Positions 2,927 through 25,877 of a DNA stretch of 25,949 bases are shown here, in pieces. Below the pieces are notes generated by a model, which had not been told where the DNA came from, did no database searches, and saw nothing but the letters and a program-made list of their open reading frames with translations. Location: positions 1 to 25,949 of the IMG/VR virus record IMGVR_UViG_3300042673_000265; one strand, given 5' to 3'. This DNA is from a virus. Position 1 is the first letter of the stretch. Every line of letters starts with the position of its first letter. The position numbers and the translations under genes were made by a program.

Positions 2927-3135
2927 TTAATACCCCATTTAATTTTTAACCAAATACGCTCGTGGATGTAATAGTCCACACTTAATAATATATGTAACAA
3001 AGTAGCGAACCCTGTGCTATGTGCCAGATCGCCTGTGTACAAATATGTCCAAAAGATAGTAAACAGCCAAGCTGTGATACGATAGCTGACCATCCTGGCG
3101 ATAGTTCTCTTGTGTGTTTCTTTTATTTGCCCCAT
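2923..3135 (-). CDS. Small DUF2061-type membrane protein
   Basis: A 70-residue integral membrane protein. A basic N-terminus (KETHKRTIARMVSYR) precedes two hydrophobic helices at about residues 17-33 and 40-52, and the protein ends with YYIHERIWLKIKWG. The order of these elements, basic KR..A.....R start, a conserved T between helices and a HERIW end, is the DUF2061 pattern known from small bacterial inner-membrane proteins of unknown role. The start overlaps the end of queE by 13 bases (ATG inside the last TCA-TGG-GGC codons), so it is translationally coupled. A role in the phage is unknown. Confidence 0.75.
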   Translation of the reverse strand: MGQIKETHKRTIARMVSYRITAWLFTIFWTYLYTGDLAHSTGFATLLHILLSVDYYIHERIWLKIKWGIK

Positions 3136-3974
3136 GAATTACCCCAAAGATCAACATGTAATCGTGGACTGTAATAATATCCACGACGCATAGCTTCATC
3201 AGCTACATTAAATTTATTACCATCGTAGACTTTAACCACACCACCCACTGGCATGATATAAACAACACCTTTAAATTTAGCTCGACGATATTCTGCTACA
3301 GCCCGATCAACTTCATCAAAGTCTGCTGGAGATTCGACTACAAACTTAAGGTATGTAGTGCCAACACGTTCATAACTCTTAACTATGTCAGGTTTGACTG
3401 CATCCGCCCATGCTTCACCACTTGCTGATAGTTTAGCACTGACGCTGAATGTAATCTCTCTACTACCACGATTCCATAGTTTCAGATACTTAGCAAAGTC
3501 TTCATGTAGTTCCTGTGTGCCGTTAGTTTCAAATGTTAAGTTCTTTAAGTTGTACATGTCTTTATGTGATAACAAATCTGGATAAGCACGTTGCCAACCT
3601 AACAATGGTTCACCACCTGTGATAACCAAATGGGTGTCATTGCCATTAGGCATGATCCAGCTATTACTAGGCACTAGGTCTAGCATACGATCGACTACAG
3701 CATCAATCTCTAATAGTGGACTAAAGTTCTTAAATCTAGGATCCCAACTTGCATAACTGTCGCAACCGGTATTAACCAAAGGTAGTTCTTCATATATGCG
3801 ATATTTTGATGGATCGATGAACTCACGCTCTGTGCTCATCTGTGTACGATCCGTCATACCAAATCCGCCACAGGTAAAGTTACAGCCAAAGGTTCTTAAG
3901 AACACACTAGGCACACCAATAAAGCGTCCTTCACCTTGTGCTGAATAGAATATTTCTGATATTTTTAATTTCAT
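3123..3974 (-). CDS. queE: 7-carboxy-7-deazaguanine synthase QueE, with atypical cluster loop
   Basis: QueE is a radical SAM enzyme that turns 6-carboxytetrahydropterin into 7-carboxy-7-deazaguanine (CDG), the third step from GTP to preQ0. The N-terminus (SEIFYSAQGEGRFIGVPS, residues 6-23) and RTFGCN are QueE hallmarks, and ITGGEPLL at 118-125 is the SAM-binding GGE motif. The iron-sulfur loop is unusual. It has Cys31 and Cys35, but where the third Cys of Cx3Cx2C should be (residue 38) there is Phe, and the next cysteine is Cys71, after a 35-residue insert. At 283 residues it is longer than most bacterial QueE (about 220). It starts its own transcription unit behind a consensus promoter. The 20-base leader is AT-rich with no Shine-Dalgarno sequence. 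Partners in this window are FolE, the QueD-like protein and DpdA. Confidence 0.9.
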   Translation of the reverse strand: MKLKISEIFYSAQGEGRFIGVPSVFLRTFGCNFTCGGFGMTDRTQMSTEREFIDPSKYRIYEELPLVNTGCDSYASWDPRFKNFSPLLEIDAVVDRMLDLVPSNSWIMPNGNDTHLVITGGEPLLGWQRAYPDLLSHKDMYNLKNLTFETNGTQELHEDFAKYLKLWNRGSREITFSVSAKLSASGEAWADAVKPDIVKSYERVGTTYLKFVVESPADFDEVDRAVAEYRRAKFKGVVYIMPVGGVVKVYDGNKFNVADEAMRRGYYYSPRLHVDLWGNSWGK

Positions 3975-4037: not shown

Positions 4038-6074
4038 CTAAATTTCTTTGATATTTTTTGCAATTTTCGATGATCTAAAATCAAAACATGCTCTATAAAA
4101 ATATTGTTTTTGTCTATCAAGTCCTTGCATTTGATTCCAATCAATATCAAACCAACGCCCACCGATTAATATTTGGGTATCTAAAATTACAAATTCTTTG
4201 TTATTAAGTTCTAGAACCCCTGACTGTTGATATTTAAACCAATCATATTTAGAATTAAATTTTTTTCCTGATGAATAATTTATGTCAATTGTTATATTTT
4301 TAGAATAGTTTAGAAGATCTTCTAGTTTATCATCTATTTTGATCAATTGACTGATACTCTTAAATGTAGCATCAAATAATGAATCAATATCTAGTAGACT
4401 CACAAATATAAAATAGATAGCTGGAGCGAATGTAAAATTTAAATCTTCATGATAATCAATGTACAGGTCCGGGCAGTCTGTGTTGATCCATTCCTTAAAC
4501 TTATTAACAGATTTTAAATAATTATTTTGTAATGTTGTATTTGTGTTAGAATCGTACAGTATAAAATTAATAGTGTTGTTGAAAAATTCCCCATAAGATA
4601 TTTCATGTTCTTTCCATAAATAATCAGCTACTAATGATAATATCTTACTATTCTGCATTGATGCAGTAAAAATTTGTAACATATTCATTAATATCCAATC
4701 ATCCGGTGTATAGGAAAAACTTCCAACAACATATTCACCAGTCATGTCATCAAAATTATTTGCAACAGTTACTCCTGAATCTTGTTGTCGACCCGGTTTG
4801 GCTTTGATTAATCTAGTCGCACCTACACCCTGACTGCTTTTATTTTTAACAGTGACTATCTTAAACTTCTTTCTATATATTGGATCTGCAGCGGGGGTAG
4901 CTGGAAGCATAGCCCAATGGTAACTCAAAGGATAAGGTAACTGTTCTATACTAATAGCTTGTATACCAGTCTTAACTGTTTCAACTGAACTTCCAGGTAA
5001 CCCTAAAATACTTTCAATCCAGATTGGTAAGTATTTTTCTTCTTGTAATTTTTTAAACATTTTTACCTGATCTTCAAAACTAAAATCTACTCTATCCACG
5101 TTCTTTTTTACTTCATCATTGATGTCTTGAATAGCTATCTGATAATGACTTAGCATATCTGCTTCGGCGAGTAAGAGATAAATTTTAGTAAGTTGATCAA
5201 TTTTGACTTTTGTGGGTTGGATTAGTATTTGTTTAGGAAACCCATATTTTATTTTAGTTGCTACACAGTGCTTGATATATTCTATATCAATTGGAAACAT
5301 TCCAAAATTAGCATCTGCAAAATTTATGGCATCTATATTATTTTCTCCTGTCCAAGTAATTTCATCTAATACCGTGCCAAAGTCTTTCTTGTTTGTCTTA
5401 GTAAAAGTGCCGCCACCCCAGTCGCAGAAACTACACTTGTACGGACAACCTCGACTGGTTTCCATTATTAACCAACTTCGTTGTGATTTAAGATTGTTAA
5501 TAAATGGAATCATATATTGCTGTTGTGCTCTATAGGGATTCTTAGGCCATTTAAATTCTCGTTTGTTTGGTGCAAGACTGTTAAATTTTCTATCTCTATT
5601 TTTATCAGGATAATAACAATATTGTATTTGTTCTGCACATAATTTATTATTATTTTGAGATATGTTGTCTAGAATATCTAAAAAAGATTGTTCGCCATAG
5701 GCATCGCTAGGAACAACAAGATCAATGAATTGATATTGTCTAAAAAAATCTTCATTATAATGTATATCGCATTGCGGCCCACCCCAAATAATTACAGTAT
5801 TGGGAAGAGATTTTTTTATATCAGAAGCAAGATCTAAGTTAAATTTTTCATTCCAGATATAAACACTAAACGCAATTACAGTTGGTTTTTGATCAACAAG
5901 ATATTTTAATAAATTATCAGGATGGTCGTACTCTAAATTGGGATGTCCCCACTCCCAAACAGATGAATATTTACTGCGTTCCTCGTAATAGGTTTTAACA
6001 CTAGCCCATAGTAATGGAATCGAATAGGTATAAGATCCCGGTCTGTTTACTACAAAAATTTTGTTTTTCTTCAT
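4038..6074 (-). CDS. B12-binding-type radical SAM protein (678 aa)
   Basis: A 678-residue radical SAM protein with the layout of the cobalamin-binding subclass. The N-terminal 190 residues look like a Rossmann B12-binding domain (PTVIAFSVYIWNE at 64-76, VIIWGGPQ at 94-101, YGEQSF at 126-131). The 4Fe-4S motif is RGCPYKCSFCDWGGG, with Cys210, Cys214 and Cys217. FADANFGMF follows in the TIM barrel, and ILGLPG near 355 is also typical. A long C-terminal part of about 270 residues is not recognised. The protein shares its motif set and the FADANFG signature with the 595-residue protein encoded at 12411-10624, so the two are paralogues. Such enzymes methylate or rearrange unactivated carbons; the substrate here is unknown. 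It lies 131 bases after the fucosyltransferase-like gene, with no clear Shine-Dalgarno sequence before its ATG, and just upstream of queE. Confidence 0.8.
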   Translation of the reverse strand: MKKNKIFVVNRPGSYTYSIPLLWASVKTYYEERSKYSSVWEWGHPNLEYDHPDNLLKYLVDQKPTVIAFSVYIWNEKFNLDLASDIKKSLPNTVIIWGGPQCDIHYNEDFFRQYQFIDLVVPSDAYGEQSFLDILDNISQNNNKLCAEQIQYCYYPDKNRDRKFNSLAPNKREFKWPKNPYRAQQQYMIPFINNLKSQRSWLIMETSRGCPYKCSFCDWGGGTFTKTNKKDFGTVLDEITWTGENNIDAINFADANFGMFPIDIEYIKHCVATKIKYGFPKQILIQPTKVKIDQLTKIYLLLAEADMLSHYQIAIQDINDEVKKNVDRVDFSFEDQVKMFKKLQEEKYLPIWIESILGLPGSSVETVKTGIQAISIEQLPYPLSYHWAMLPATPAADPIYRKKFKIVTVKNKSSQGVGATRLIKAKPGRQQDSGVTVANNFDDMTGEYVVGSFSYTPDDWILMNMLQIFTASMQNSKILSLVADYLWKEHEISYGEFFNNTINFILYDSNTNTTLQNNYLKSVNKFKEWINTDCPDLYIDYHEDLNFTFAPAIYFIFVSLLDIDSLFDATFKSISQLIKIDDKLEDLLNYSKNITIDINYSSGKKFNSKYDWFKYQQSGVLELNNKEFVILDTQILIGGRWFDIDWNQMQGLDRQKQYFYRACFDFRSSKIAKNIKEI

Positions 6075-8372: not shown

Positions 8373-8705
8373 TTATCCTTTGTATGCTCTAACGCTGATG
8401 ATCTTACCGTCTTCGTTGTAGGTGATGACGTCTGTGACGAATATTTGTTCTGCACCGTTGATAGTGATCAACAGTTCAGCAATGATGTTATCGCCATCTT
8501 CATATATCGCACCTGGAGTGGCTGTGATACTGTCAACACTGTTGAAAATCTTTTCATAGACAGCTACCACATCATTTTTACCTACTGCGGCATTTTCCCA
8601 GTCACGTAATTGGCAACCTGGTGCGAACATCTTAGATATCGCATCTAAATTTTTATATGAAAATAGATAAAAATATTGTAAACTCAATGCTTTTAAATCG
8701 ATCAT
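8373..8705 (-). CDS. NTF2-like / SnoaL-like small protein
   Basis: A 110-residue protein with the pattern of the NTF2/SnoaL cone-shaped fold: an N-terminal helix pair (YFYLFSYKNLDAISKMFAPGC), then GKNDVVAVYEKIF, followed by alternating beta strands ending in ITYNEDGKIISVRAYKG, which is typical of the last strands of this fold. These domains serve as binding pockets, isomerases, hydratases or enzyme partners. No catalytic residues can be assigned with confidence, although Asp35 and Asp91 line up with common pocket positions. The ATG overlaps the TGA of folE by four bases, so it is coupled to FolE and may act on a pterin or a nearby intermediate; that link is inference from position only. Confidence 0.75.
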   Translation of the reverse strand: MIDLKALSLQYFYLFSYKNLDAISKMFAPGCQLRDWENAAVGKNDVVAVYEKIFNSVDSITATPGAIYEDGDNIIAELLITINGAEQIFVTDVITYNEDGKIISVRAYKG

Positions 8706-9397
8706 CTTGGGGCAAACTCCTGTTGTAATTTAATATTGTCAAAAAATTCTTTCTTAGTGTTGCCATCATCTTTAAAAGCACCTTTAAGCACTGTGGTTTG
8801 TGTTAGACTACTATGTGCCATGATGCCTCTGTTCTCACAGCAACCATGTGTGGCCTGTATATACACTGCTACGTTTTCACTGCCTGTGGCTTTCATTATT
8901 TCTCTCGCGATGTCATTAGCAAGTTCTTCTTGCAGTGTACCACGACGGCTACACCATTGAGCAATACGAGTATACTTACTAAGTCCAATAAGTTTCTGTG
9001 CGGCGATAATTCCAATATAGGCAACACCACTGACAGGCTGGTGATGATGACTACACATACTACGAAGCTCACTTCTAACCACCAGCATACCTTCATATCG
9101 GTCCTCACTATCATTTGGAAAAGCTGTAGCGTCTGGTGCCGGATCATACCTACCTGCCATAATCTCATTATAGTACATTTTAGCAAGACGTCTGGCTGTG
9201 CCCTTTGAGTTAGGATCATTTTCACGATCGATCAACAAGGTATCTAACACGCCCTCAAATGCTCGAGTCGCTTCATCGATCAACGCTTCTTTATTTTCTT
9301 CAGTGATGTATTCTGAGATGTTATCACCTGCCCAGAATCGTTTGTTATTGTTCTTTAGATTATTACGAATAGTTTCGCTGACTACATATTTTGTCAA
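8702..9397 (-). CDS. folE: GTP cyclohydrolase I, TTG start
   Basis: FolE opens GTP to 7,8-dihydroneopterin triphosphate, the first step to both folate and 7-deazaguanines. Zinc ligands are visible as Cys115 and His118 (SMCSHHHQPVSG) and Cys186 (HGCCENRG). IGLSKYTRIAQW and RRGTLQEELANDI are the classic active-site and substrate-binding blocks. The length of 231 residues is normal (E. coli FolE 222). The start is a TTG at 9397-9395, preceded at seven bases by GGAG; the next in-frame ATG is too far in. The gene has its own near-consensus promoter. In this context (queE, a queD-like gene and dpdA in the same window) its product most likely feeds the deazaguanine route. Confidence 0.95.
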   Translation of the reverse strand: MTKYVVSETIRNNLKNNNKRFWAGDNISEYITEENKEALIDEATRAFEGVLDTLLIDRENDPNSKGTARRLAKMYYNEIMAGRYDPAPDATAFPNDSEDRYEGMLVVRSELRSMCSHHHQPVSGVAYIGIIAAQKLIGLSKYTRIAQWCSRRGTLQEELANDIAREIMKATGSENVAVYIQATHGCCENRGIMAHSSLTQTTVLKGAFKDDGNTKKEFFDNIKLQQEFAPR

Positions 9398-9487: not shown

Positions 9488-10627
9488 TTATAATCCTAAT
9501 TCTGTACGTAGATCATCTACAGGACTGGACCAATCGTTGGTAAATGATCGCAAATATTCGATACGATCTAGATCTTCTTGTGTTTCTAATACCATTTCTT
9601 CATTGCAAAAATGCAATCGACATTTGTTTGATAGTGCTGCCTGTAATAATTTTTGACGATGTGCGGGATCATCGGGTAAACTGAATATACTGAATAACAA
9701 TATATGATCCACACCACCGTGTGTTATCTGATAATCTAAAAATGCATAGTTAGTTCCTTCATTATCACCACCTTGATAAGGGAAGGTATAATTACGTTTT
9801 TGACAGTATGCTTTGACTACAAGTGTTTGGAAATGGAGATCTATGTGCCTAGTCTTGATTCCTTCATATTCACCGTGGGTAACTACCACCTCACCCGGTT
9901 TAATATCTACAACCTTTGTATATTGACGATCAAACAGTTTACGGAAATATGCGCCAGGCCATTTACGATGGGGTTGTCCCCCACGCACTAGTAATCTTAC
10001 ATCCATGCTTACTCTAGTCTTTCCGGTTCTATTAGGAAAGTTGCCATGTATATGTTCTTGTAAAAACAAGTGCGCCTGCCCTGGATGTAGTGTAACTGGC
10101 CAAGCGTTCGTAGCACATGCATTTTGTATGCGTTCGTAGTCCCAATTTTCCAAAACTGTACGACGAGTGATTTCTCTGCTAGCATCCAAATCTAAAATTT
10201 GTAAGGTATTGGTTTCATAACAATCAGTAAAAGGCACCCAAATTGTGCGTAGTCCTAGTCCATTGCCCACCCATCGTCCTTGATGAAATAATAAAACTGC
10301 ACCAATTTTGTCTTGGTCTGGCTCTAAGATGCGTAAATTACCAAATTTTTGAATTAAAACGTCGGTTCCTAACTGTGGTACAATTAAATCATTTATCAAT
10401 TGATCATAATAATCGTAATATTTGGTATTCAACAATTCATGCGATGCTTTGTGATTCAATTCTGAAATTTTGTATGGAGGGACGACTTCATGAATAAGGT
10501 CTAACGATTGAACGTCAGGATAAAATTTTCTAATGGTTTCTAATACGATATCAACTAATGGATATTTTTCTAAATCATAATTAAGTGATTTATTGTTAAA
10601 TGTTTCTTGTGTGCGGCCCAAACTCAT
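9488..10627 (-). CDS. 2OG-Fe(II) oxygenase fused to a LIC12192-type carbohydrate-cluster domain
   Basis: A 379-residue two-domain protein. Residues about 85-215 look like a 2-oxoglutarate/Fe(II) dioxygenase of the PhyH-like kind. IWVPFTDCYETNTLQILD (129-146) is the typical strand with a Trp-x-Pro start, and PGQAHLFLQEHIHGNFPN (182-199), followed by RVSMDVR (205-211), gives the distal metal His (His194) and the 2OG-binding Arg. Residues about 255-362 resemble the LIC12192 family of sporadic carbohydrate cluster proteins: a FQTLVVKAYC start, an ILLFSIFSLP core, RLHFCNEE and DRIE at the end. I know the two as separate neighbours in bacterial glycan loci; here they are one chain. The ATG overlaps the stop of the B12-type radical SAM gene by four bases. 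It is the last gene of the 14-gene run. The oxygenase call is solid; the second domain rests on memory of the family pattern. Confidence 0.7.
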   Translation of the reverse strand: MSLGRTQETFNNKSLNYDLEKYPLVDIVLETIRKFYPDVQSLDLIHEVVPPYKISELNHKASHELLNTKYYDYYDQLINDLIVPQLGTDVLIQKFGNLRILEPDQDKIGAVLLFHQGRWVGNGLGLRTIWVPFTDCYETNTLQILDLDASREITRRTVLENWDYERIQNACATNAWPVTLHPGQAHLFLQEHIHGNFPNRTGKTRVSMDVRLLVRGGQPHRKWPGAYFRKLFDRQYTKVVDIKPGEVVVTHGEYEGIKTRHIDLHFQTLVVKAYCQKRNYTFPYQGGDNEGTNYAFLDYQITHGGVDHILLFSIFSLPDDPAHRQKLLQAALSNKCRLHFCNEEMVLETQEDLDRIEYLRSFTNDWSSPVDDLRTELGL

Positions 10628-12411
10628 GATATACTCACCTTATTTTTAAGTAATCCTTTCCGACGAAGGAGGTAGAAATTTTCTGTTACCGAATCAAGTT
10701 GATTGCTAACCTGATATTTAGTTAAACCAGATTGTCCGCTGTATAAATTAAACTCAGTTGTAAGTTCTATAGGATATGTTTCATCTTTATCATATATAAA
10801 CATTTTCTGCAATTTGTATATGTCAATTGAATAATTTACACATAAATCTGCTAAAGTTTTTATAGCTAAATCATAGACATGGTTTTTATTATTATACAGT
10901 GGTTCGTATGATACACTATGAAGTGCGTGACCTCCTTGATAGTGGCTAGGAAGTTTTCCGGTACTTAAATAGATAGTTACGATTTCTCTTAGATCGGTGT
11001 AATGGGCAGAGAACAACAAATCCTGCTTTATCATATTAAATAATTTGTCATAAAAAGTTCTATAAGCTACACCATGAACATTTCTTGCGTATCTGGAGAT
11101 AATTTGAGTATAGCCATTCATATGAAAATGAATAATCATCCAGGCATACATGTAACTTTCAATGATGTCATCAAAACTCATAGTTTTTGTTTGGGTAACT
11201 ATTTCATTAAATTCTTTAACAGAATCTTCATCTTTTTCTCCCCCCAATAGAAGATAATCTTCCACCATGATAGATTTGATTCCGTAGAGTGTTCTCGAAA
11301 ATGGAGAGGCCATCTCTGAGTTACGTAATAACTGTGCAAACCAAACATCTATAATCTGATGCTGTCCTAATTCTAACAAATCAGTGAGCCCTTGTTTCCA
11401 AGATTCGAGAGTTTCATTAGGCAGCCCTAATATCATTTCGGTATAGGTGTTAACCCCGTATTTTAGACTGGCATCCATTACTTGTTTAATGTCGGAGATA
11501 TCTAAATTTTTACGTTTAATATCAATTAGAGTTTGTTCGTTCATGCTTTGAACACTAACGGTTATACCTTTACTATAAGGACCAATCTCTTTAGCGATTT
11601 CGTAGATAATGTCGGTGCTATTTTTGGTGTATTGAACACTAATAGATTCAATCATTGATTTATCTGCCGCTGCTCTGATAAGTTTAGCAATCTCTAGGTC
11701 GCGTTCTTTGAATATACCAAAATTTGCATCAGCAACAAAAATGTAACTTACACGATTGTTAGCAGCCCAATTTAATTCTTCGGCCACACGTTCAATCCCG
11801 AATTTTTTAATTTTAGAATAGGTTAAACTGCCCCAATCACAGAAGGTGCACTGAAAAGGACATCCCCTATTAGTTTCCAATGACATCGCCCACACAGCAT
11901 TCGGATTATTTTTAATAATTTTATCAAAAACTCCAGTCGTATACGGACTAGGTATAGTTAACTCTTGTAATCTTGATTTATTGTAAGATTGTTCGATTGG
12001 TGTTGAATTTAAAATGCTATTTAATAGAGATAAAAAAGATTCCTCACCTTCGCCGAATATCACAGAATCAATGAACCAATAGTTTAATGTTTGGTCTGTA
12101 GGTTGAGGTCCACCGAAAACTATTATACAATCTGGCCAGCGTTTTTTAATTTGTTCTGCTAACACTAAACAATAATTTTCGTTCCATAGATAACAACTGA
12201 AACCGCATACTACGGGATCAGTAAGTTGTTCTAAAACTAAACTAATTTGTTGTCTACGGAAAAAAATATTATCTAATAAAAAATTATCAGTAATATGTGA
12301 AAATTGACTTACATAACTCCACACACACCCTGCACTATAAGGTAACCAGTAATTTTTTTCATTACGAACTTCAACAGCGTATTGGGGTTGAAACAAATAA
12401 ACATTTTTCAT
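10624..12411 (-). CDS. B12-binding-type radical SAM protein (595 aa)
   Basis: A 595-residue radical SAM protein. The N-terminal domain (residues 1-165) has the B12-binding pattern: PVVCGFSCYLWNE at 66-78, IIVFGGPQPT at 96-105 and FGEGEESF at 119-126. The cluster motif is NRGCPFQCTFCDWGS, with Cys184, Cys188 and Cys191. FVADANFGIF and MILGLPNETLESW follow in the barrel. The C-terminal 200 residues are not recognised. It is a paralogue of the 678-residue protein encoded at 6074-4038, sharing CDWG and ADANFG. The start lies directly after a run of A residues with no Shine-Dalgarno sequence. Its stop overlaps the 2OG/LIC12192 gene, which suggests consecutive steps on one substrate, perhaps a sugar or a modified base. 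No methyl-transfer activity can be read from the sequence alone. Confidence 0.8.
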   Translation of the reverse strand: MKNVYLFQPQYAVEVRNEKNYWLPYSAGCVWSYVSQFSHITDNFLLDNIFFRRQQISLVLEQLTDPVVCGFSCYLWNENYCLVLAEQIKKRWPDCIIVFGGPQPTDQTLNYWFIDSVIFGEGEESFLSLLNSILNSTPIEQSYNKSRLQELTIPSPYTTGVFDKIIKNNPNAVWAMSLETNRGCPFQCTFCDWGSLTYSKIKKFGIERVAEELNWAANNRVSYIFVADANFGIFKERDLEIAKLIRAAADKSMIESISVQYTKNSTDIIYEIAKEIGPYSKGITVSVQSMNEQTLIDIKRKNLDISDIKQVMDASLKYGVNTYTEMILGLPNETLESWKQGLTDLLELGQHQIIDVWFAQLLRNSEMASPFSRTLYGIKSIMVEDYLLLGGEKDEDSVKEFNEIVTQTKTMSFDDIIESYMYAWMIIHFHMNGYTQIISRYARNVHGVAYRTFYDKLFNMIKQDLLFSAHYTDLREIVTIYLSTGKLPSHYQGGHALHSVSYEPLYNNKNHVYDLAIKTLADLCVNYSIDIYKLQKMFIYDKDETYPIELTTEFNLYSGQSGLTKYQVSNQLDSVTENFYLLRRKGLLKNKVSIS

Positions 12412-12422
12412 TTTTTTTTTTT
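12411..12422 (-). repeat. Run of 12 A residues between two genes
   Basis: On the minus strand an unbroken run of 12 A residues spans the TAA stop of the epimerase gene and the ATG of the radical SAM gene. It replaces the ribosome binding site; A-rich leaders can be bound by ribosomal protein S1. The exact length may also be uncertain for technical reasons. Confidence 0.8.
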
Positions 12423-13335
12423 ATTTTTGCTTCCAATGAGCAATAGTTAAATCTAATCCAGTATCTAAATCAACTTTTGGAGCCCACCCAGTAAGTTCTG
12501 TTACTAGCTTATGATTGCTGTTAAGTAGATAAATTTCACCAGGACGTTCTGGTTTAGTATTCCAAAAGATACTGCCTTTCCAATCTAACTTGTCTGCAAT
12601 CTTATCCGCTAATGCGCTAATTTGTATGGGATTGTTTGGACCAATGGTAAAGATATAACCACTATTGGTTTTTTCTGGATTTTCGATAATCGTAGACCAT
12701 AGGTCTAGCAGATCATCAATGTATAAGAAGTTGCGATAAGGTGTACCGTAACCCAATCTTACTGCACTTGAATTACGCAACATCTGAGTAATAATCTGTT
12801 CAACTACAAAGAAGTCGTTTTCTTTACGCCCATAGGTATTGGTCTGACGGATAGCACAGAATGGCAAGCCTAAACTGCGATGTGCGTATTCTAAATATTT
12901 CTCACATGCCAGTTTTGCCACAGCATAAGGTGCATTGGGATTAGGTTTAGTGTTCTCGTCAAATGTTGGAATCGTGCCTTTAAAATATCCTTGTTTTTTA
13001 ATTAGGTCACTAACGGGTTGCCAACCATATACTTCCATGGTACTAGCAAATACAAAGTTCTTTAAGTTCTTAAGTTTGGCAGCACTTTCAATTAGGTTGA
13101 CTGTGCCCACATAGTTAATTTCACTAAAGGTAACTTGCTCATAGAAACTGCGTTCAACTTCAGTTCTAGCACCAAAATGTACGATAATCTCAGGGTTAAA
13201 ACTAAATAATTCTTCGCGAACTTTGCTAAAATCTAACAGATCTGCTGTCATAGCAAATACAGTATGATTCTTTTTTAATAATTTAGTAAAATGTGATCCG
13301 ATAAATCCGCTGGCACCTGTAATAAAAATTTTCAT
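12421..13335 (-). CDS. Extended-SDR nucleotide-sugar epimerase/dehydratase
   Basis: A 304-residue NAD(P)-dependent sugar nucleotide enzyme of the extended short-chain dehydrogenase family. The cofactor loop GASGFIGS is at 7-14, the catalytic Ser/Thr at 98-99 (FASTMEVYG), and Tyr137-x3-Lys141 (PYAVAK) completes the triad. RNFLYIDDL near 205-215 and a C-terminal RPGE are usual in UDP-glucose 4-epimerase and GDP-mannose dehydratase relatives. The length is close to normal. The substrate cannot be chosen between UDP- and GDP-sugars. Its ATG overlaps the stop of the small 2OG-type oxygenase gene by four bases. In this operon it sits with a DegT-like protein and a glycosyltransferase, which suggests synthesis of a specific sugar. 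Confidence 0.88.
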   Translation of the reverse strand: MKIFITGASGFIGSHFTKLLKKNHTVFAMTADLLDFSKVREELFSFNPEIIVHFGARTEVERSFYEQVTFSEINYVGTVNLIESAAKLKNLKNFVFASTMEVYGWQPVSDLIKKQGYFKGTIPTFDENTKPNPNAPYAVAKLACEKYLEYAHRSLGLPFCAIRQTNTYGRKENDFFVVEQIITQMLRNSSAVRLGYGTPYRNFLYIDDLLDLWSTIIENPEKTNSGYIFTIGPNNPIQISALADKIADKLDWKGSIFWNTKPERPGEIYLLNSNHKLVTELTGWAPKVDLDTGLDLTIAHWKQK

Positions 13336-13844
13336 TGATTTGTTACTCCTGTAATTATCATCATGTACCTGTTACTATGTCCTAAATTTGCTGTCATGTG
13401 TAAATCCGACAGTTTAAAACCAATCCAGTCACCTGCCGTCCAATTTGTAAATCCAAAATCTGCTATTTCGATATATTGACCGGATTGCCAATCATCCAAC
13501 ATAACCATCACTCTAGATATTTCGGAGTTGTTGTTTATTCCTGTTAACTCGTTATAAAACTTATATACATCTTTATGTTTAGGAATTACGTTTCCGAAAT
13601 CTAATCTATTTACTTGAACTTTCAGTTGTTTTAACCAGTTAAACTCTTTATATATAGAAAAAAATCTAATATCACCTTCTAAATCTTTAATTTGCCAAAC
13701 AGAAGTATTATACCTTTTAGCGTCCTCGGGATCAAACAAATCACTTAAAGCATTTGAGTTATTTAAACTATATTTTTTTTCTACAAATTTTAATTGCTTA
13801 ATGTCCTCTAAGTTCCATGTTGGATGAATGTGACCTCGCATCAT
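13332..13844 (-). CDS. Small 2OG-Fe(II) oxygenase-like protein
   Basis: A 170-residue protein with a double-stranded beta-helix pattern like that of aspartyl/prolyl hydroxylase-type oxygenases. PKHKDVYKFY gives a His-x-Asp pair (His90, Asp92). TAGDWIGFKLSDLHMTANLGHSNRY gives a distal His149 and Arg159, in the order metal His-x-Asp, then His, then 2OG-binding Arg. It is shorter than many relatives but long enough for the core. No signal peptide is present. ATGA overlaps join it to the DegT-like gene before it and the epimerase after it. It may hydroxylate a sugar, nucleotide or amino acid. This is the second 2OG-type protein in the operon; the substrate is unknown. Confidence 0.65.
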   Translation of the reverse strand: MMRGHIHPTWNLEDIKQLKFVEKKYSLNNSNALSDLFDPEDAKRYNTSVWQIKDLEGDIRFFSIYKEFNWLKQLKVQVNRLDFGNVIPKHKDVYKFYNELTGINNNSEISRVMVMLDDWQSGQYIEIADFGFTNWTAGDWIGFKLSDLHMTANLGHSNRYMMIITGVTNQ

Positions 13845-14419
13845 TTTATTATAATCTCTCTTAAATCTGGGTATTCTTTATATTTAACAGTCTGGTCCAC
13901 AGTGGATAATAATTCTAATCCACGAGCTGCATCTTCTATAGTAGGCTTATAATGATATCCAACACGGAATACCTTTTGTTGTTCCCAGGGACTAATATTA
14001 AGATCTCGCCCATCATACCGCTGTTGGCTAAGGACATCATAGATTTCTACATCATCAGTTAAGACCGCACCACCACGACCAATCTCAAGAGGTTTATTAT
14101 AACCAAAACTTAGGCACTGTAGCTGTCCCTCGCGATACATACCTTCTCGAAGCAGTCTAGCTGAATCCCAGATGCGTGTGCCAATGAACTGATATTCACC
14201 GATCCATGGTTTATCAGTATAGCTATATTCAATGCCTAACTTGTGCATGGTCATTGGGATACTGAGATAGGTATGTGCTGGAAATTGCACACGAGTGATA
14301 CGGTCATAGCGTAGACACAGCTCAATAGCGTGTGTGCAACAATCTGTCATCACGGCATATGGTGCGCCTGTGAACAGAGTCAATGCCCGTTCAAATTCAT
14401 AGATCTTATCAAACATCAT
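13841..14419 (-). CDS. Half-size DegT/DnrJ/EryC1-type aminotransferase-like protein
   Basis: A 192-residue protein with the large-domain motifs of DegT-type PLP-dependent sugar aminotransferases. VQFPAHTYLSIP (44-55) matches the substrate-side strand, RIWDSARLL (82-90) holds the Asp that contacts the PLP ring nitrogen, and SFGYNKPLEIGRGGAVLTDD (104-123) contains the candidate PLP lysine, Lys109, and the glycine-rich turn. Full-length relatives have about 370 residues; here the C-terminal domain is missing. It is not a simple truncation by frameshift, because the stop overlaps the next start by four bases and the sequence ends in an ordered way. It may work as a minimal enzyme, a partner subunit or a non-catalytic binding protein. 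Confidence 0.7.
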   Translation of the reverse strand: MMFDKIYEFERALTLFTGAPYAVMTDCCTHAIELCLRYDRITRVQFPAHTYLSIPMTMHKLGIEYSYTDKPWIGEYQFIGTRIWDSARLLREGMYREGQLQCLSFGYNKPLEIGRGGAVLTDDVEIYDVLSQQRYDGRDLNISPWEQQKVFRVGYHYKPTIEDAARGLELLSTVDQTVKYKEYPDLREIIIK

Positions 14420-15474
14420 TTGATATTGTTTAATAGATTGGTCGCTGAAAAGAATTTTTCTGTAAGACTGACAGCATTAGCACGAACTAACTGTGTGCGA
14501 GAGTCAAAGTTTTCCATGTGTTCACGGATTATATTGACCAGTTTAGTTTTATGTGTCAGATAGCTATCAAAACTTTCAGTCCACTCACTTGGGTATTTAA
14601 ACAATCCGCCATACATCTCTTGATAACTTAAACGATCTGGAACCACCGGAACTGCACCAACCAGCATACCTTCATAGCAACTGATGCCTAGAGTTTCTTG
14701 TAGGTTAGCTGAGAATACTATCTTACTTTCACCTAATAGGCGATGATACTGATCTTTAGTCAACTGTTGATCCTGGCAGACTATCCACTCATATTGTGGT
14801 AGTGTTTGGGCTAGATCGCGAAATATCTCTACCTGTTTCTCTGGAGCGATGCGATGCGGAAACAAGATAAGATCACGCTTAGGTAAATCCTTATATGGCG
14901 CAAGTATCTCTGCCATATATTCCATAGGCCAACCTGTGCGAACGATCTTCTTTTCGTTAAACCAGTTAGGTACTTTAAACAAGTTAAAGTTGAACATAGT
15001 AATATGGAAATCAGTAGCAAAGTAGTTATAGTCCACAGCTTCAAAGAAACTTTTCTCTGCATGTCTGACCCATGGCGCATCACCAATAAGACGTCCTAAG
15101 AAGTCCTGTGGATCATAACTACCAGCATGCCAAAGTGCGTGTATCTTTACCTTTATGTCCAACAGCTCGGACATATATTTAAGATTGATGATGCCAGGAT
15201 GCCAAGCATCAGTGAAAATGAAATGATCTCCAGCGTGAACCTTACCATCCGTAAACAGGCGCCCAATCTGCCCAACTTGATCAGCTTTGTAAACATTTGT
15301 GCCGCCAAAGTTGAGAAAAGCACCGGGAGTAGTAGCTTGAGGAATATCGGTAGGGCCTTCAATAACCACAACATCATGTCCTGCATCCTTTAGTAGATTA
15401 GGCACATGAGTCTTCCATTGACCCGTGTACCTTGTTTCAACTGCTTCTAGATCAACTAGAAATACAGTCATCAT
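14416..15474 (-). CDS. GT-B glycosyltransferase, similar to tRNA-queuosine mannosyltransferase type
   Basis: A 352-residue GT-B fold glycosyltransferase of the GT4-like group. The C-terminal Rossmann half begins at ILFPHRIAPEKQVEIF (about 203-218), where Arg and Lys usually contact the nucleotide-sugar phosphates. ANLQETLGISCYEGMLVGAVPVVPDRLSY carries the donor-binding Glu-x7-Glu motif. The FPHR..PEK and QE..GIS..E...GA.P..P.RLSY blocks resemble the DUF3524/queuosine mannosyltransferase group. That is suggestive beside QueD and DpdA, but it is a motif-level likeness only. The N-terminal half has TDAWHPG and HALWHAGSYD segments. It is coupled by ATGA overlaps to the genes on both sides. The acceptor could be modified DNA, tRNA or a glycan. 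Confidence 0.75.
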   Translation of the reverse strand: MMTVFLVDLEAVETRYTGQWKTHVPNLLKDAGHDVVVIEGPTDIPQATTPGAFLNFGGTNVYKADQVGQIGRLFTDGKVHAGDHFIFTDAWHPGIINLKYMSELLDIKVKIHALWHAGSYDPQDFLGRLIGDAPWVRHAEKSFFEAVDYNYFATDFHITMFNFNLFKVPNWFNEKKIVRTGWPMEYMAEILAPYKDLPKRDLILFPHRIAPEKQVEIFRDLAQTLPQYEWIVCQDQQLTKDQYHRLLGESKIVFSANLQETLGISCYEGMLVGAVPVVPDRLSYQEMYGGLFKYPSEWTESFDSYLTHKTKLVNIIREHMENFDSRTQLVRANAVSLTEKFFSATNLLNNIK

Positions 15475-16138: not shown

Positions 16139-16159
16139 CTATTCTCTATTCTCTATTCT
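16139..16159 (-). repeat. Three perfect tandem copies of a 7-base unit at a gene end
   Basis: On the plus strand CTATTCT occurs three times in tandem (16139-16145, 16146-16152, 16153-16159). It encodes the last residues and stop codon of the SPASM-type radical SAM gene and lies just before the queD-like start. A 7-base unit shifts the frame with each gain or loss. Confidence 0.9.
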
Positions 16160-17140
16160 ACACATATTAATACATATAGGGTTAGGGTTGTTATCTAAAC
16201 TTTCTGGTAAGATTTTTTGATAGAACTCATTTTTTATGATATCTTCTATTTTGTGATAATGTAGATCGATATGATCAAACTTATCCAATCTTAAATATTT
16301 TTTTAAATGTATTTTCGTAGCTTTATTGATTGTTGATTTATCTGGTGCTACATGGGATCCAAGTAAATAACAACAAGGCCAAACAGTCCCATCAGCATAG
16401 ATACTGACCCATTTAATATCTCTACTTTCGCAATCTATTTTTAATTTATCATATTGATTATACAATTTTACAATATTTTCTTCGACATTGTCAACAGTTG
16501 TCTTTTCGATTTTATGAGAAAATACTCCTTTATTGTAAACATCTGCAGATAAAGTGGGTCCGAATCTATCACTCGGTAAATATTCAAACCTCTTAAACCC
16601 TAATTTTTTTGATAAGGCTGAGCAGGCGTCGATCTGATGCTGATTGTGCTTGAAAACTATCATTTGCCATACAGCGTTTCCCCCTGCTTTTATGAAAGAT
16701 TCTGCATGGTTAATTATACGTTCCCAATCAGTGTTAACACGATATAAACCATGTGTATCTTTCATACCATCAAGAGCAAAGTGTACAGTCGCATTATCCC
16801 TGATAATTGTTCTACCCAATTCTTCCCAAAAATCGCAATTTCTCATGCTACCATTGGTGCCAAGCATAAATTTTCCTGGACTGTGTTCTAACACATATCT
16901 ACAGAATTTTATAATATCCGGATGCATAGCATTATCGCCGGTGGTCCCAAGAAATTTTGTATATTGTATATGATTTAAAAAATCAGGAGATACTTGATTT
17001 TTAAATACTTCAAAATCTAAAAAAGTATTTAAATTTGGAAGAGTACCATCATTTGGAGTTCGGGCACACTGTGGACATAGTGCATTACAACTATTAGTTG
17101 TTTCGATGTCTAATTTATATATTTCTTCAGGTCGAAACAT
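16139..17140 (-). CDS. SPASM-type radical SAM protein (333 aa)
   Basis: A 333-residue radical SAM protein. The cluster motif SCNALCPQC is at Cys18, Cys22 and Cys25. In place of the GGEP turn it has GTTGDNAMHPD (65-75), a variant seen in some of these families. A C-terminal auxiliary-cluster region of SPASM type is suggested by Cys237, the pair Cys256-Cys257 in ADGTVWPCCYL, and Cys323/Cys327 at the very end (PICINMC). SPASM proteins often act on peptides, but also on small molecules such as sugars. Its ATG shares one base with the stop of the 175-residue gene, and queD follows by five bases, so it is firmly embedded in the dpdA-queD operon. The substrate is unknown. Confidence 0.82.
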   Translation of the reverse strand: MFRPEEIYKLDIETTNSCNALCPQCARTPNDGTLPNLNTFLDFEVFKNQVSPDFLNHIQYTKFLGTTGDNAMHPDIIKFCRYVLEHSPGKFMLGTNGSMRNCDFWEELGRTIIRDNATVHFALDGMKDTHGLYRVNTDWERIINHAESFIKAGGNAVWQMIVFKHNQHQIDACSALSKKLGFKRFEYLPSDRFGPTLSADVYNKGVFSHKIEKTTVDNVEENIVKLYNQYDKLKIDCESRDIKWVSIYADGTVWPCCYLLGSHVAPDKSTINKATKIHLKKYLRLDKFDHIDLHYHKIEDIIKNEFYQKILPESLDNNPNPICINMCRIENRE

Positions 17141-17886: not shown

Positions 17887-19023
17887 TCATAATTTAACTC
17901 CAAATGTTTCTTCAAAATTTTGATTTCTAATCTGATCCAATTCTAGTGTATAGTTTACAAAAGTATTATATGATGATGCATTCATTATACACTTATTTAG
18001 ATTATTTTGCAATGATTTTAATGTCTGGATTGATCGTTCTGGGTTATTATCTATAGTGGACAATGTATCAATAGCTTGCTGTAATTGTTCATTCGCTGTT
18101 TGTTTTAACGCATCATTTAATACTGCTGGATTTAAAAAAATTGGATCTTTACAGATACTAAACCATATTTCCAGTGGTTGATCTGCATATTCTATTTTAA
18201 GACTCTTAAAGAATATCAATAGATTGTTAATGTCTAATATACTATATGCACTTAACACAGTATTAAATCCTACACTTTGTCTAGTAGACAGTATCTGTTT
18301 AATATTTTTAACTAACGTAGGCCATACAGTTCCATTACGAACATATTCTGCAACATGGGACACAGCATCAAGACTGATAGTCCAATGAACACGATCAAAA
18401 TGTTTGACTAATTCAACAATTTTATTATTAATTACACTAGCATTTGTAGTAATCAATAATTCGCAAGCGGTATTATTTAAACGAATAAGTTCTTCTAATA
18501 CCGCTATATTTTCTTTAATTAATAATGGTTCCCCACCTGTAAAATTAATTCTTTTCACCGTAGACAATAATAATTTAATATCCTGTTGGCTCTTGTGATT
18601 TTCTAAATGTATATTAGTCGGTGTGTGATACTTGGATAATTTTAGATTTTTCTGTATCTCTCTGGCTATCTCACTGCTGAAACTAGGTTCACAGCTGCGG
18701 CAACTGAAATTACATAAATTACTGTGGCGCAGATCTAGATATAAAATTTTGTCAGGAACAGTTTCGATGCTATAATTCCAATCTTTAAGTGCCAATGCCC
18801 TGGTGCTGGTATATCCTTGTTCTTCTAATTTCAGACAACCTTGATAACACTCTTGTGGAATTTTACCTTGACTAATGTTATTTTTTATGTCAGCCAGATA
18901 TGTTGATTTAAAAAAATCTATTGGCGAAACATCAAGTTTAGTAGAACTACTACAACACATTTTAATACCGTCTGCTTGGACAAATTGATGTATCCAAGGC
19001 AAAGGGCAAAAGAATTTAGACAT
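17887..19023 (-). CDS. Twitch-type radical SAM protein (378 aa)
   Basis: A 378-residue radical SAM protein with an added N-terminal cysteine domain. The catalytic cluster motif is NLCNFSCRSCEP, with Cys104, Cys108 and Cys111; NFTGGEPLL near 158-166 is the SAM-binding turn, and LLITTNASV and WTISLDAV follow in the barrel. Before it, FCPLPWIHQF (5-14), MCCSS (Cys23, Cys24) and CYQGC (Cys59, Cys63) form a set of five cysteines that resembles the CPxPW/twitch auxiliary-cluster element, which is more often found at the C-terminus. The start overlaps the dpdA stop by eight bases, which ties it closely to DpdA. It could act on the deazaguanine base before or after insertion, or on an unrelated substrate; only the enzyme class is certain. 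Confidence 0.82.
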   Translation of the reverse strand: MSKFFCPLPWIHQFVQADGIKMCCSSSTKLDVSPIDFFKSTYLADIKNNISQGKIPQECYQGCLKLEEQGYTSTRALALKDWNYSIETVPDKILYLDLRHSNLCNFSCRSCEPSFSSEIAREIQKNLKLSKYHTPTNIHLENHKSQQDIKLLLSTVKRINFTGGEPLLIKENIAVLEELIRLNNTACELLITTNASVINNKIVELVKHFDRVHWTISLDAVSHVAEYVRNGTVWPTLVKNIKQILSTRQSVGFNTVLSAYSILDINNLLIFFKSLKIEYADQPLEIWFSICKDPIFLNPAVLNDALKQTANEQLQQAIDTLSTIDNNPERSIQTLKSLQNNLNKCIMNASSYNTFVNYTLELDQIRNQNFEETFGVKL

Positions 19024-20557
19024 CTTGTTCTAATTCATCTAGTTTAGCTTCATCTAAGCCACTGTCGTCTACATGATGTTCTTCGACTTCTTCACTTTCA
19101 AATAATGTATTAAACATAGTACTTGCGTTAACTGTTTTCTTACCTGTAGCACCACGTGTACCAATGATTGACATCCAGAACTTGCTGAATTCATCAATGA
19201 TAGCCAATGCTGTACCTTTGTCGCTGGTAGCAAATATAGCATCAACCACATCACGGAAGTACACACGATCAAATGTTTCTTGTACTAGCATCCTTGGAGT
19301 AAGTCCAAGATCATATTGACGATTAGCTTCTTGCACTGCTGTTAAATGGCTCCAAACATTATGACCCATCTGTATAGCATAACTGAAACTATCCCAACTT
19401 GTCTTACCTTCTTTATTAATTTTATTTAGATCACCTGGCTTATAGATACAGATATCTTTAATAGTACAACGTTGGCTTATTGGGCTTTCTGTGAATGCTT
19501 TGAACAAGTTATCTTGTAATACGGCATCACGGAACCGACGTGTATCTGTTGAATATTTTTTATCGTCAACACTAGGTACCATTCTATAGACCCATTTTTC
19601 TCTATCAGTGATTTCTGTTTGAATATAGATCTGCCCATTAGCACTAGCCAAGAATGGACTAGCGCAATCAAACGATATTGTAAAGTTTGAATTATGATAC
19701 TTACGAACAGCTCGTTGTATATCTGTTAATAAACATGCCCACTCAAGTTTACTTGTGCCCAAGAAGTGCATCCAATCATGCAAGCCTTTTTCTAAAAGAC
19801 CATCAAAGCGTAGTTCTACAAGTCTGCGTAATACTAAGTGTACATCACACATGTTCTGTCCACCCATAGCCCAACCTTCAAATGGTTGTGCATACTGCTT
19901 AGGATCACAGTACTTCTTCATACGATCATACCAATCGTCTGCGTCTGCGTGATTCTCACCCTGTAGTACGTTTAAGAATTTACAAGCCCCTGTGCGATTC
20001 TTCATGAAGTAATCATTGTTAATATAAGTGCCTTGAACTGCTTCCATGTATGTATTAATACCTGTGGCTTTACGACCTGCTGGACTACGAGCCACCCACG
20101 CTGGGATATCTAAGATCATACCACGATCCATATAAGCATCCATCCATGATAACACTAGCTCACGTTTCTTCTGTGCTTTAGGACACGTAGGATTCTTCCA
20201 ATCACCTTCCCATACACCCTTACCAATTTGGAAACCACCTGAATCACCTAAGATAAAACTACGGCTACGATCTCTATTTCTGACCATATCTTCTTTAGGA
20301 CTGTGTTTGTTAACATCTAATTCAGCATGACCTGCTGAATACAAGGCCCATTGATATGGAAAATATGCTGCATCTGGATTAAGCCAATTGAGACCTTCTA
20401 TACCATTTTCAAAGTCAGAGGGTATGCGTGCTGGATCTACATACGTAGGATCATGCCGTTGTTTACCTACATAGGTAGCATAGAAGCCACTCAATGCTGG
20501 TAAGAATACGGCATAGTCTAGCTGTTTGCTGGTAAGATTGTCTCTTTCAAATGTCAT
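19016..20557 (-). CDS. dpdA: DpdA-like DNA 7-deazaguanine transglycosylase (TGT family)
   Basis: A 513-residue protein of the tRNA-guanine transglycosylase family. ILGDSGGFQ (102-110) carries the catalytic Asp105 that recognises the base. SFDCASPFLASANG (295-308) carries the nucleophile Asp297 in the block that reads FDCVxPTRxxRxG in TGT. VLQGENHAD, MGGQN and HFLGTSK match the intervening blocks, and GHNVWSHL (398-405) the end of the zinc region. The zinc motif is altered: Cys364 and Cys370 with His399, instead of Cys-x-Cys-x2-Cys and His. Phage members (DpdA) swap guanine in DNA for preQ0 or a related base and protect against restriction. An acidic tail of about 25 residues ends the chain. 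The gene sits two bases after the sliding clamp gene, and the start has only a weak ribosome site. DNA rather than tRNA as substrate is inferred from the phage context. Confidence 0.85.
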   Translation of the reverse strand: MTFERDNLTSKQLDYAVFLPALSGFYATYVGKQRHDPTYVDPARIPSDFENGIEGLNWLNPDAAYFPYQWALYSAGHAELDVNKHSPKEDMVRNRDRSRSFILGDSGGFQIGKGVWEGDWKNPTCPKAQKKRELVLSWMDAYMDRGMILDIPAWVARSPAGRKATGINTYMEAVQGTYINNDYFMKNRTGACKFLNVLQGENHADADDWYDRMKKYCDPKQYAQPFEGWAMGGQNMCDVHLVLRRLVELRFDGLLEKGLHDWMHFLGTSKLEWACLLTDIQRAVRKYHNSNFTISFDCASPFLASANGQIYIQTEITDREKWVYRMVPSVDDKKYSTDTRRFRDAVLQDNLFKAFTESPISQRCTIKDICIYKPGDLNKINKEGKTSWDSFSYAIQMGHNVWSHLTAVQEANRQYDLGLTPRMLVQETFDRVYFRDVVDAIFATSDKGTALAIIDEFSKFWMSIIGTRGATGKKTVNASTMFNTLFESEEVEEHHVDDSGLDEAKLDELEQDV

Positions 20558-25085: not shown

Positions 25086-25877
25086 TTAATGCTTTCTTTT
25101 TATTTCTAATAGACCAAACTTTTCAAAGATTTTAGCATATAAGTAGCCCAAGTCTATCTCCCACCATCGATGAGAAAAACTGCCACCACCGGGCCTAGTT
25201 GTATGATTTGAATGAAACTCTTCTCCGCAATGTAGTATGCCGATCGGAAAATAATTTACTGCATGTTTCGTATCTAGATACCCAAATCCGTGATTCGGGC
25301 TAGTATAATCTATCGCTTTACATGTTCCGATTCCGTGGAACATAAAAACCACTACCCACGGATGCCAATATTTCTCTAATAAATACCACAACACACCTGA
25401 TAGGAATCCAGCTAATGGACCAAACAATATCCAACCAACTATTCCCACTAACCATATTCCAAGGTATCTATTTTCTTTAAAGAAATTCTCTAAGTGATCA
25501 TCAAAATCCTGATATGGATTTGGGTGAGCATTCTTCCATTCCTGAGGAACGAACCATGCATCACCTTCCTCTGGTATTCGATTAATGTGGGTTATTTGCT
25601 TAAAAGTAAATCTTCTTGGACTGTTTGAATCTATATCAGTGTCACCAAACTGATGGTGAAAATTATGTGCGAACCAAGCTTCTGTTTTCCAACCAGGCCA
25701 CCATGATAGACCTAACCATAATATGATTCTGCAAAACTTTTCAAATTTATGAGACAGCACTCTCATAGACCGATGAGTAATATCTCTATGGAAGTAGATG
25801 GTGTATATCATCCAAAAGATATGTCTGAGAAATATAATATATATAGGAAACCAATACCAATAAAATAATCCGCTCAT
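25086..25877 (-). CDS. Fatty acid desaturase (delta-9-type, membrane di-iron)
   Basis: A 263-residue integral membrane desaturase that would introduce a double bond into acyl chains. Histidine box 1 is HRDITH (30-35), box 2 HNFHH (71-75), and box 3 FHSNHT (221-226). Bacterial relatives usually read HNNHH in box 3, so the last His is Thr here. Further His residues at 172, 181, 196 and 205 could complete the di-iron site. Hydrophobic segments lie near 5-29, 50-62, 138-165 and 172-186. The length is close to that of short bacterial acyl-lipid desaturases (about 260-300). It has its own promoter and lies 111 bases before the polymerase gene. Presumably it changes host membrane lipids during infection; that it is active is not certain. 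Confidence 0.85.
   Translation of the reverse strand: MSGLFYWYWFPIYIIFLRHIFWMIYTIYFHRDITHRSMRVLSHKFEKFCRIILWLGLSWWPGWKTEAWFAHNFHHQFGDTDIDSNSPRRFTFKQITHINRIPEEGDAWFVPQEWKNAHPNPYQDFDDHLENFFKENRYLGIWLVGIVGWILFGPLAGFLSGVLWYLLEKYWHPWVVVFMFHGIGTCKAIDYTSPNHGFGYLDTKHAVNYFPIGILHCGEEFHSNHTTRPGGGSFSHRWWEIDLGYLYAKIFEKFGLLEIKRKH

Follow-up and report, generated by a model that had tools for sequence, protein, structure and literature searches.

A phage lineage of putative iron/2-oxoglutarate proteins lacking the iron-binding aspartate and fused to a LIC12192 domain of predicted serine-recombinase fold

Radical halogenases of the Fe/2-oxoglutarate (Fe/2OG) type, such as the CurA halogenase domain (CurA Hal), SyrB2, CytC3 and AdeV/AdaV, use a two-histidine HxG/A...H site, and their known substrates are carrier-bound acids and nucleotides. 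The HXG/A motif has been used as a mark for selecting 2OG halogenases, nucleotide halogenases included (PMC11186838), and is likewise the mark of AdeV, which acts on nucleotides (PMC12766721). For a plant halogenase, the replacement of aspartate by glycine was the key evolutionary step, though insufficient alone (PMC12346261). Here we analyse a 25,949-base virus record (IMG/VR IMGVR_UViG_3300042673_000265; hereafter the window) that encodes a 379-residue protein with such a site, fused to a LIC12192 domain. The fusion protein shares fold, HxG/A...H site and 2OG arginine with the radical halogenases, but it is not close to them in sequence and its activity is a prediction. VirX1 of cyanophages, a known viral halogenase (Gkotsi 2019, cited in PMC10452541), would be comparable as a phage-encoded halogenase, but VirX1 is flavin-dependent and unrelated to the fusion. 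The fusion and its key residues are as follows.

9488..10627, minus strand: fusion protein, 379 residues, HxG Fe/2OG domain plus LIC12192 (TIGR04323) domain
9917..10627, minus strand: PhyH-type double-stranded beta-helix domain, residues 1-237 (TIGR04324, AlphaFold2, Foldseek, VIA)
10277..10285, minus strand: H115-Q116-G117, proximal iron ligand motif, Gly for Asp
10046..10048, minus strand: H194, distal iron ligand, invariant in the fusions and in the bacterial HxD group
10013..10015, minus strand: R205, predicted 2OG-binding arginine (R-x-S), invariant in both groups
9533..9892, minus strand: C-terminal domain, residues 246-365, predicted serine-recombinase catalytic fold with the catalytic residues absent (VIA, hhalign)

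The iron-binding aspartate is lost throughout the fusion lineage, as in Fe/2OG halogenases and the two-histidine enzyme AspH. HQG occupies the proximal position in all 90 fusions longer than 360 residues and in all 50 unique full-length fusions from a search that used only the C-terminal domain and is unbiased at the iron site. Because one search pattern of the genome scan and of the alignment scan contained HQG, bias was checked, and both the scan with the window protein (no HQG in its patterns) and the C-terminal scan returned HQG throughout. The fusions thus read HQG...H rather than the HxD...H of the facial triad, whereas all 16 bacterial TIGR04324 proteins read carry HxD; in one bacterial split pair the oxygenase protein has HTG. 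With glycine at the carboxylate position and both histidines and the 2OG arginine retained, the fusions show the sequence pattern of a halogenase. The sequence-only reading had called this domain simply an oxygenase, but with the aspartate gone in every fusion hydroxylation cannot be assumed.

Both the HxD and the HxG group retain H115, H194, R205, Q93, W130, N199, S207 and R211, and this invariance of ligands and shell alongside HQG argues against decay. Four further positions switch with the loss of the aspartate, from S to G at 123, L to H at 192, N to D at 209 and K to L at 213. In the tree, a branch with support 100/98 separates the HxG group and the bacterial HTG split protein from the remaining sequences. 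The split protein lies outside the fusions, whose own clade has support of 94/92 to 99/95, so the aspartate was probably lost before the fusion event. The alignment-based scan of viral contigs gave no viral HxD forms. A scan with a single bacterial protein gave distant viral FHSD relatives without a LIC12192 domain (loci L239-L244), and the idea that viruses carry HxG only was dropped.

Over residues 38-239, somewhat wider than the limits of 85-215 first proposed for the oxygenase domain, the fusion matches TIGR04324 (E 1.8e-23). Its 83.4 bits stand against a cut-off of 150, which by NCBI's rule makes it a divergent relative and not a member. It resembles TIGR04324 oxygenases in family (by profile and tree), in the spacing around both histidines and in the invariant shell; it differs in the glycine, in the exchanges S123 to G, K213 to L and L192 to H, in scoring about half the model's cut-off, in being joined to TIGR04323 and in being phage-borne. 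Residues 260-359 match the TIGR04323/LIC12192 model, as had been anticipated for the C-terminal half, with E 7.4e-15 and 55.0 bits, exactly the cut-off of 55. The alignment of 42 relatives comprises 41 full-length fusions plus the split pair's oxygenase half; TIGR04324 is found in all 42 and TIGR04323 in 41 (E <= 0.001), the one miss being that split half. This recurrence indicates that the matches in the window are not due to chance.

In Pfam, the fusion matches PF05721 (PhyH) alone, at E 0.0024, and the same search gave no match to PF05118, the AspH-type hydroxylase family. The AlphaFold2 model has a predicted local distance difference test score (pLDDT) of 94.7 and a predicted template modelling score (pTM) of 0.90. 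For the N-terminal half, the top solved structure in Foldseek is the CurA halogenase domain (3nnj, E 7.9e-9), with SyrB2 also high (3.2e-7), and the top VIA match is PtlH (2rdr, Z 14.1, 3.6 A over 207 residues). Three sugar-antibiotic enzymes of the PhyH superfamily, EvdO2, AviO1 and HygX, are also among the fold matches. The model thus has the double-stranded beta-helix fold, but HxD hydroxylases match as well, and the fold is therefore not specific for a halogenase.

The C-terminal half is predicted to adopt the catalytic fold of serine recombinases. In the full model its VIA match is gamma-delta resolvase (2gm4_A, Z 11.7, 2.5 A over 109 residues). When the domain was modelled alone (pLDDT 86), VIA ranks 1-31 were all serine recombinases (Z 12.3 to 8.2), followed by an unrelated structure at 6.8. 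Profile-profile comparison with resolvases by hhalign gave 91.6% and paired the resolvase motif Y-A-R-x-S with Y-V-F-S-R and LDRLGR with VHMLPQ; the window protein reads HGEYEG and IFSLPD at these positions. A PDB sequence search with LIC12192 proteins gave nothing credible, and Pfam Resolvase appeared in just one of eight such proteins, at E 0.13, so the fold assignment rests on structure and profile comparison. Like the catalytic domains of gamma-delta resolvase, TP901-1 and phiC31 integrase, the domain would have the recombinase fold over its whole length, with weak profile kinship, but the catalytic Ser and Arg positions are replaced and the fusion has no DNA-binding domain. On these models, LIC12192 is a serine-recombinase fold without recombinase chemistry, for which a role in binding or dimerisation may be envisaged. 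The family name does not suggest such a fold, and no paper in the literature collection searched names LIC12192 or "sporadic carbohydrate cluster".

Scans of viral contigs gave 14 relatives with the window protein and 272 stretches encoding relatives with the fusion alignment. The C-terminal domain alone gave 245 stretches, from which 79 loci were kept; there, every C-terminal domain lies within a fusion, full-length in 71 and cut by contig ends in the remainder. Hundreds of contigs thus represent this phage lineage of fusions, whose parts are adjacent genes in bacteria. A tblastn search of 50,697 isolate phage records with two divergent queries found no fusion, so the lineage has no cultured host. 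In L070 (6868-9137), L074, L077 and L084, two divergent fusion genes stand in tandem with a 4-base overlap.

A scan of 84,980 bacterial and archaeal species genomes, based on HQG and QExxHGN patterns and so undercounting other forms, matched three of them. The first (L040) is a contig binned as Candidatus Pelagibacter, probably a phage fragment, with an epimerase and the fusion. The second (L041) is a Roseivirga chromosome with an intact fusion among glycosyltransferase-like genes, a GDP-mannose dehydratase and an epimerase. The third (L042), a Bacteriovoracaceae genome, has the two halves as separate overlapping genes beside a GT2 glycosyltransferase. In its phylum, Bdellovibrionota, 16 of 240 genomes have TIGR04324 above cut-off, and in most cases the following gene begins with a TIGR04323 domain and overlaps or abuts the TIGR04324 gene. 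The sequence-only reading had described the two families as separate bacterial neighbours and had taken their fusion as a sign of a functional link; these adjacent genes bear out both points. The fusion's C-terminal domain thus matches TIGR04323 at cut-off and follows TIGR04324 as in bacteria, but is fused to it. The bacterial TIGR04323 gene can itself run on into a methyltransferase (L116, L117, L122, L129, L130) or a DegT aminotransferase (L120, L123), which suggests that LIC12192 is a module joining sugar-type enzymes, with the phage fusion as a third architecture. None of 395 Bacteroidota-phylum genomes has TIGR04323 above cut-off.

Immediately upstream of the fusion lies a radical S-adenosylmethionine (SAM) gene.

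10624..12411, minus strand: B12-binding radical SAM protein, 595 residues (PF04055 at 6e-15 plus PF02310; CxxxCxxC)
11839..11862, minus strand: CxxxCxxC [4Fe-4S] motif, residues 184-191 (alignment A2)
10624..10627, minus strand: ATGA, stop/start overlap from the radical SAM gene to the fusion gene, read directly from the sequence

The assignment as a B12-type radical SAM protein holds up: a B12-binding domain lies at residues 65-129 (PF02310, 32.4 bits, just above the cut-off of 32.1), and C184, C188 and C191 are invariant in 11 relatives. The best NCBIfam model is NF033712 (KedN5), a B12 radical SAM C-methyltransferase, but at 172 bits against a cut-off of 700 the protein is not a member. The four-base overlap with the next ATG is as described before, and AAGGTGAG, a Shine-Dalgarno-like stretch, stands directly upstream of the fusion start codon. 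The identical overlap recurs in L043, L044, L046, L048, L052 and L102. The radical SAM gene adjoins the fusion in 10 of 33 dereplicated fusion loci; the coupling is real in the window but limited to a clade. One of the 50,697 isolate phage records matches the window's radical SAM protein, and B12-dependent enzymes are scarce among isolate phages. In L242 (176-3615) and L244 (772-4219), a 671-residue protein, B12 radical SAM-like by eye without a profile, precedes two tandem HSD-type TIGR04324-like genes. The latter have no LIC12192 domain, and the 671-residue protein is directly upstream in both loci inspected, so that pairing of radical SAM and 2OG proteins may exist beyond the fusion clade.

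In the wider neighbourhood a sugar cassette lies inside a FolE/QueE island, and the main genes are on the minus strand.

12421..13335, minus strand: NAD-dependent nucleotide-sugar epimerase/dehydratase (PF01370 1.7e-41; phrog_540 7.7e-57)
13332..13844, minus strand: 170-residue protein, possibly a small 2OG enzyme (weak PF05118 match only, E 0.041)
13841..14419, minus strand: short DegT/DnrJ/EryC1 aminotransferase-like protein, 192 residues (PF01041 2e-13)
14416..15474, minus strand: GT4-like glycosyltransferase (PF00534 only 0.0075; phrog_4356 5e-4)
8702..9397, minus strand: FolE, GTP cyclohydrolase I (phrog_2197 1.3e-45)
3123..3974, minus strand: QueE, 7-carboxy-7-deazaguanine synthase (phrog_2076 4.1e-52)
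19016..20557, minus strand: probable DpdA/TGT-like transglycosylase (motifs DSGGFQ, GWAMGG, LGT and FDC in the translation)
4038-6074: second B12-type radical SAM gene, 678 residues, KedN5-like (169 bits, cut-off 700), in the same cassette region
16139-17140 and 17887-19023: two more radical SAM genes, one of them N_Twi_rSAM (267 bits, above cut-off)

Transcription runs from a DNA polymerase through a 243-residue protein (a PAC2 homologue is annotated as sliding clamp), the DpdA/TGT-like protein and two radical SAM genes to a protein that we take to be QueD-like, the glycosyltransferase, the DegT-like protein, the 170-residue protein, the epimerase, the B12 radical SAM protein and the fusion, and then to FolE, a SnoaL-like protein, a phosphoribosyltransferase, the second B12 radical SAM protein and QueE. 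Counting QueE, five radical SAM genes fall within 26 kb. The four motifs of the DpdA-like protein are presumably those of TGT enzymes; Pfam, PHROGs, PADLOC and PDB gave no confirmation of the motif-based DpdA-, QueD- and QueC-like labels. The closest polymerases belong to jumbo phages, at 51% in Sinorhizobium phage Phosso (469 kb) and 46% in Agrobacterium phage Atu_ph07 (490 kb), and by this comparison the virus is a jumbo-phage relative. The 192-residue size of the DegT-like protein is conserved in several relatives. A 263-residue protein (25086-25877) with HxxHH-type histidine clusters reads as fatty-acid desaturase-like, with no Pfam match.

FolE and QueE, two genes of phage 7-deazaguanine DNA modification, are both confirmed by profile. 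The window's FolE, QueE, DpdA-like and glycosyltransferase genes are ordered as in the DpdA/FolE/QueE islands of Pseudomonas Wroclawvirus phages and Phosso, where this backbone recurs, but in the window a sugar cassette is inserted that includes the fusion and two B12 radical SAM genes. The glycosyltransferase, 51% identical to that of Phosso and about 42% to that of Wroclawvirus, is common to other jumbo phages. A DpdA-like homologue adjoins it in Wroclawvirus, and at the Wroclawvirus loci L158 (6382-9065) and L159 (5995-8678) the two genes overlap, beside QueE; glycosylated 7-deazaguanine DNA is possible there. The DpdA-like protein occurs in 13 phage records (11 Pseudomonas, 1 Sinorhizobium, 1 Vibrio) and the glycosyltransferase in 19 (11 Pseudomonas, 1 Sinorhizobium, 7 others), and these organism counts suggest that about 12 records hold both, as seen record by record only for the phages named above. 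With the FolE/QueE island and the recurring glycosyltransferase, a sugar on 7-deazaguanine DNA is a reasonable end use of the cassette, and glycosylated phage DNA is, by analogy, plausible.

We read the locus as a sugar-building phage cassette in which the fusion would be an HxG Fe/2OG radical halogenase acting on an activated sugar, with a probability of about 0.38. The epimerase and the DegT-like protein would prepare the activated sugar, and the B12 radical SAM enzyme would probably methylate one of its carbons. The fusion would hold Fe(II) by H115 and H194 only and bind 2-oxoglutarate through R205; G117 in the carboxylate position would leave an open site for halide, from which the ferryl species could place chlorine or bromine on an unactivated carbon. 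The inactive recombinase-fold domain might act in binding or docking, either by positioning the substrate or by dimerising the enzyme, and the product would pass to the island's glycosyltransferase, plausibly for the 7-deazaguanine base of phage DNA. The widest form of this proposal we regard as doubtful. In it, a widespread phage lineage of Fe/2OG radical halogenases, each with an exapted domain of serine-recombinase fold, would add halogen to an activated sugar (or a nucleotide), which jumbo phages would then attach to 7-deazaguanine DNA.

A sugar-like substrate, to which the sequence-only reading had already pointed, is likely from context: the epimerase, itself about 60% identical, is the neighbour shared by most fusion loci (19 of 33, on separate branches), and the bacterial loci L041 and L042 have glycan neighbours. 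Several findings weigh against our proposal. The top VIA match, PtlH, is an HxD hydroxylase. No epimerase is found in 14 of the 33 dereplicated loci, several of which have a cyanophage tail-fibre gene next to the fusion, and the 7-deazaguanine genes are absent from 19. On the cyanophage-like contigs L005 (7971-9107), L058, L062 and L067, a tail-fibre gene of about 1,940 residues directly follows the fusion, with no cassette gene nearby.

The strongest competing explanation, which we hold to be a serious though minority possibility, is a two-histidine hydroxylase or oxidase with water at the carboxylate site, which would hydroxylate, dehydrate or epimerise an activated sugar. All well-described PhyH-type HxG/A enzymes are, to our knowledge, halogenases, but the sugar-antibiotic enzymes among the fold matches would suit such chemistry. 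AspH provides the precedent, as a natural 2OG enzyme with the same two-histidine geometry and water that hydroxylates without halogenating (PMC13168262), and HxG is therefore no proof of halogenation. Like the fusion, AspH has no carboxylate ligand, but it belongs to PF05118, which the fusion does not match, and it acts on eukaryotic protein substrates. Weighing the HXG/A mark against this exception, we place halogenation only slightly above two-histidine hydroxylation.

A non-sugar substrate, such as a virion or tail-fibre protein, a lipid or a nucleotide, would make the sugar cassette a mere neighbour in some phages. The cyanophage-like contigs and the loci without epimerase fit this view, but it is unlikely in light of the epimerase on separate branches, the glycan surroundings of the Roseivirga fusion and the bacterial split pair, and the sugar-type aminotransferases and methyltransferases to which LIC12192 is otherwise fused. 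That the N-terminal half is a pseudoenzyme, binding sugar or acting as a scaffold for the radical SAM enzyme, would agree with the missing canonical ligand but is improbable, as 50 unique sequences, at about 35% identity, all keep both histidines, R205 and the shell. Relocation of the carboxylate ligand to D209 on the R-x-S-x-D strand, giving an ordinary oxygenase, was rejected as very improbable: the HxG group always has D209, and each of the 16 bacterial HxD proteins has N there, but the viral relatives with intact FHSD (L239-L244; TRISFDFR, TRVSIDVR) and PtlH, an annotated hydroxylase with FHQD, have this aspartate too.

The main surprises are that the whole lineage has an iron site of halogenase type and that the LIC12192 domain has a predicted recombinase fold; the sequence-only reading had missed both, as well as the phage origin of the locus. 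Few enzymes have naturally lost the carboxylate iron ligand, and the loss usually marks a halogenase. A large phage lineage in which this loss is fixed, and which has close HxD relatives, offers a lead for enzyme discovery and a clean evolutionary comparison between the HxD relatives, the bacterial HTG split pair and the HxG fusions. The LIC12192 domain, annotated so far only as a sporadic carbohydrate protein, gains a predicted fold, that of a recombinase domain which is no longer active and has been put to new use in glycan metabolism. B12- and 2OG-dependent chemistry is little explored in phages. Should the product be attached to phage DNA, it would open a new route past restriction. Should the fusion be a halogenase, it would be the first of the non-heme iron type from a virus, and possibly the source of the first halogenated sugar on a genome.

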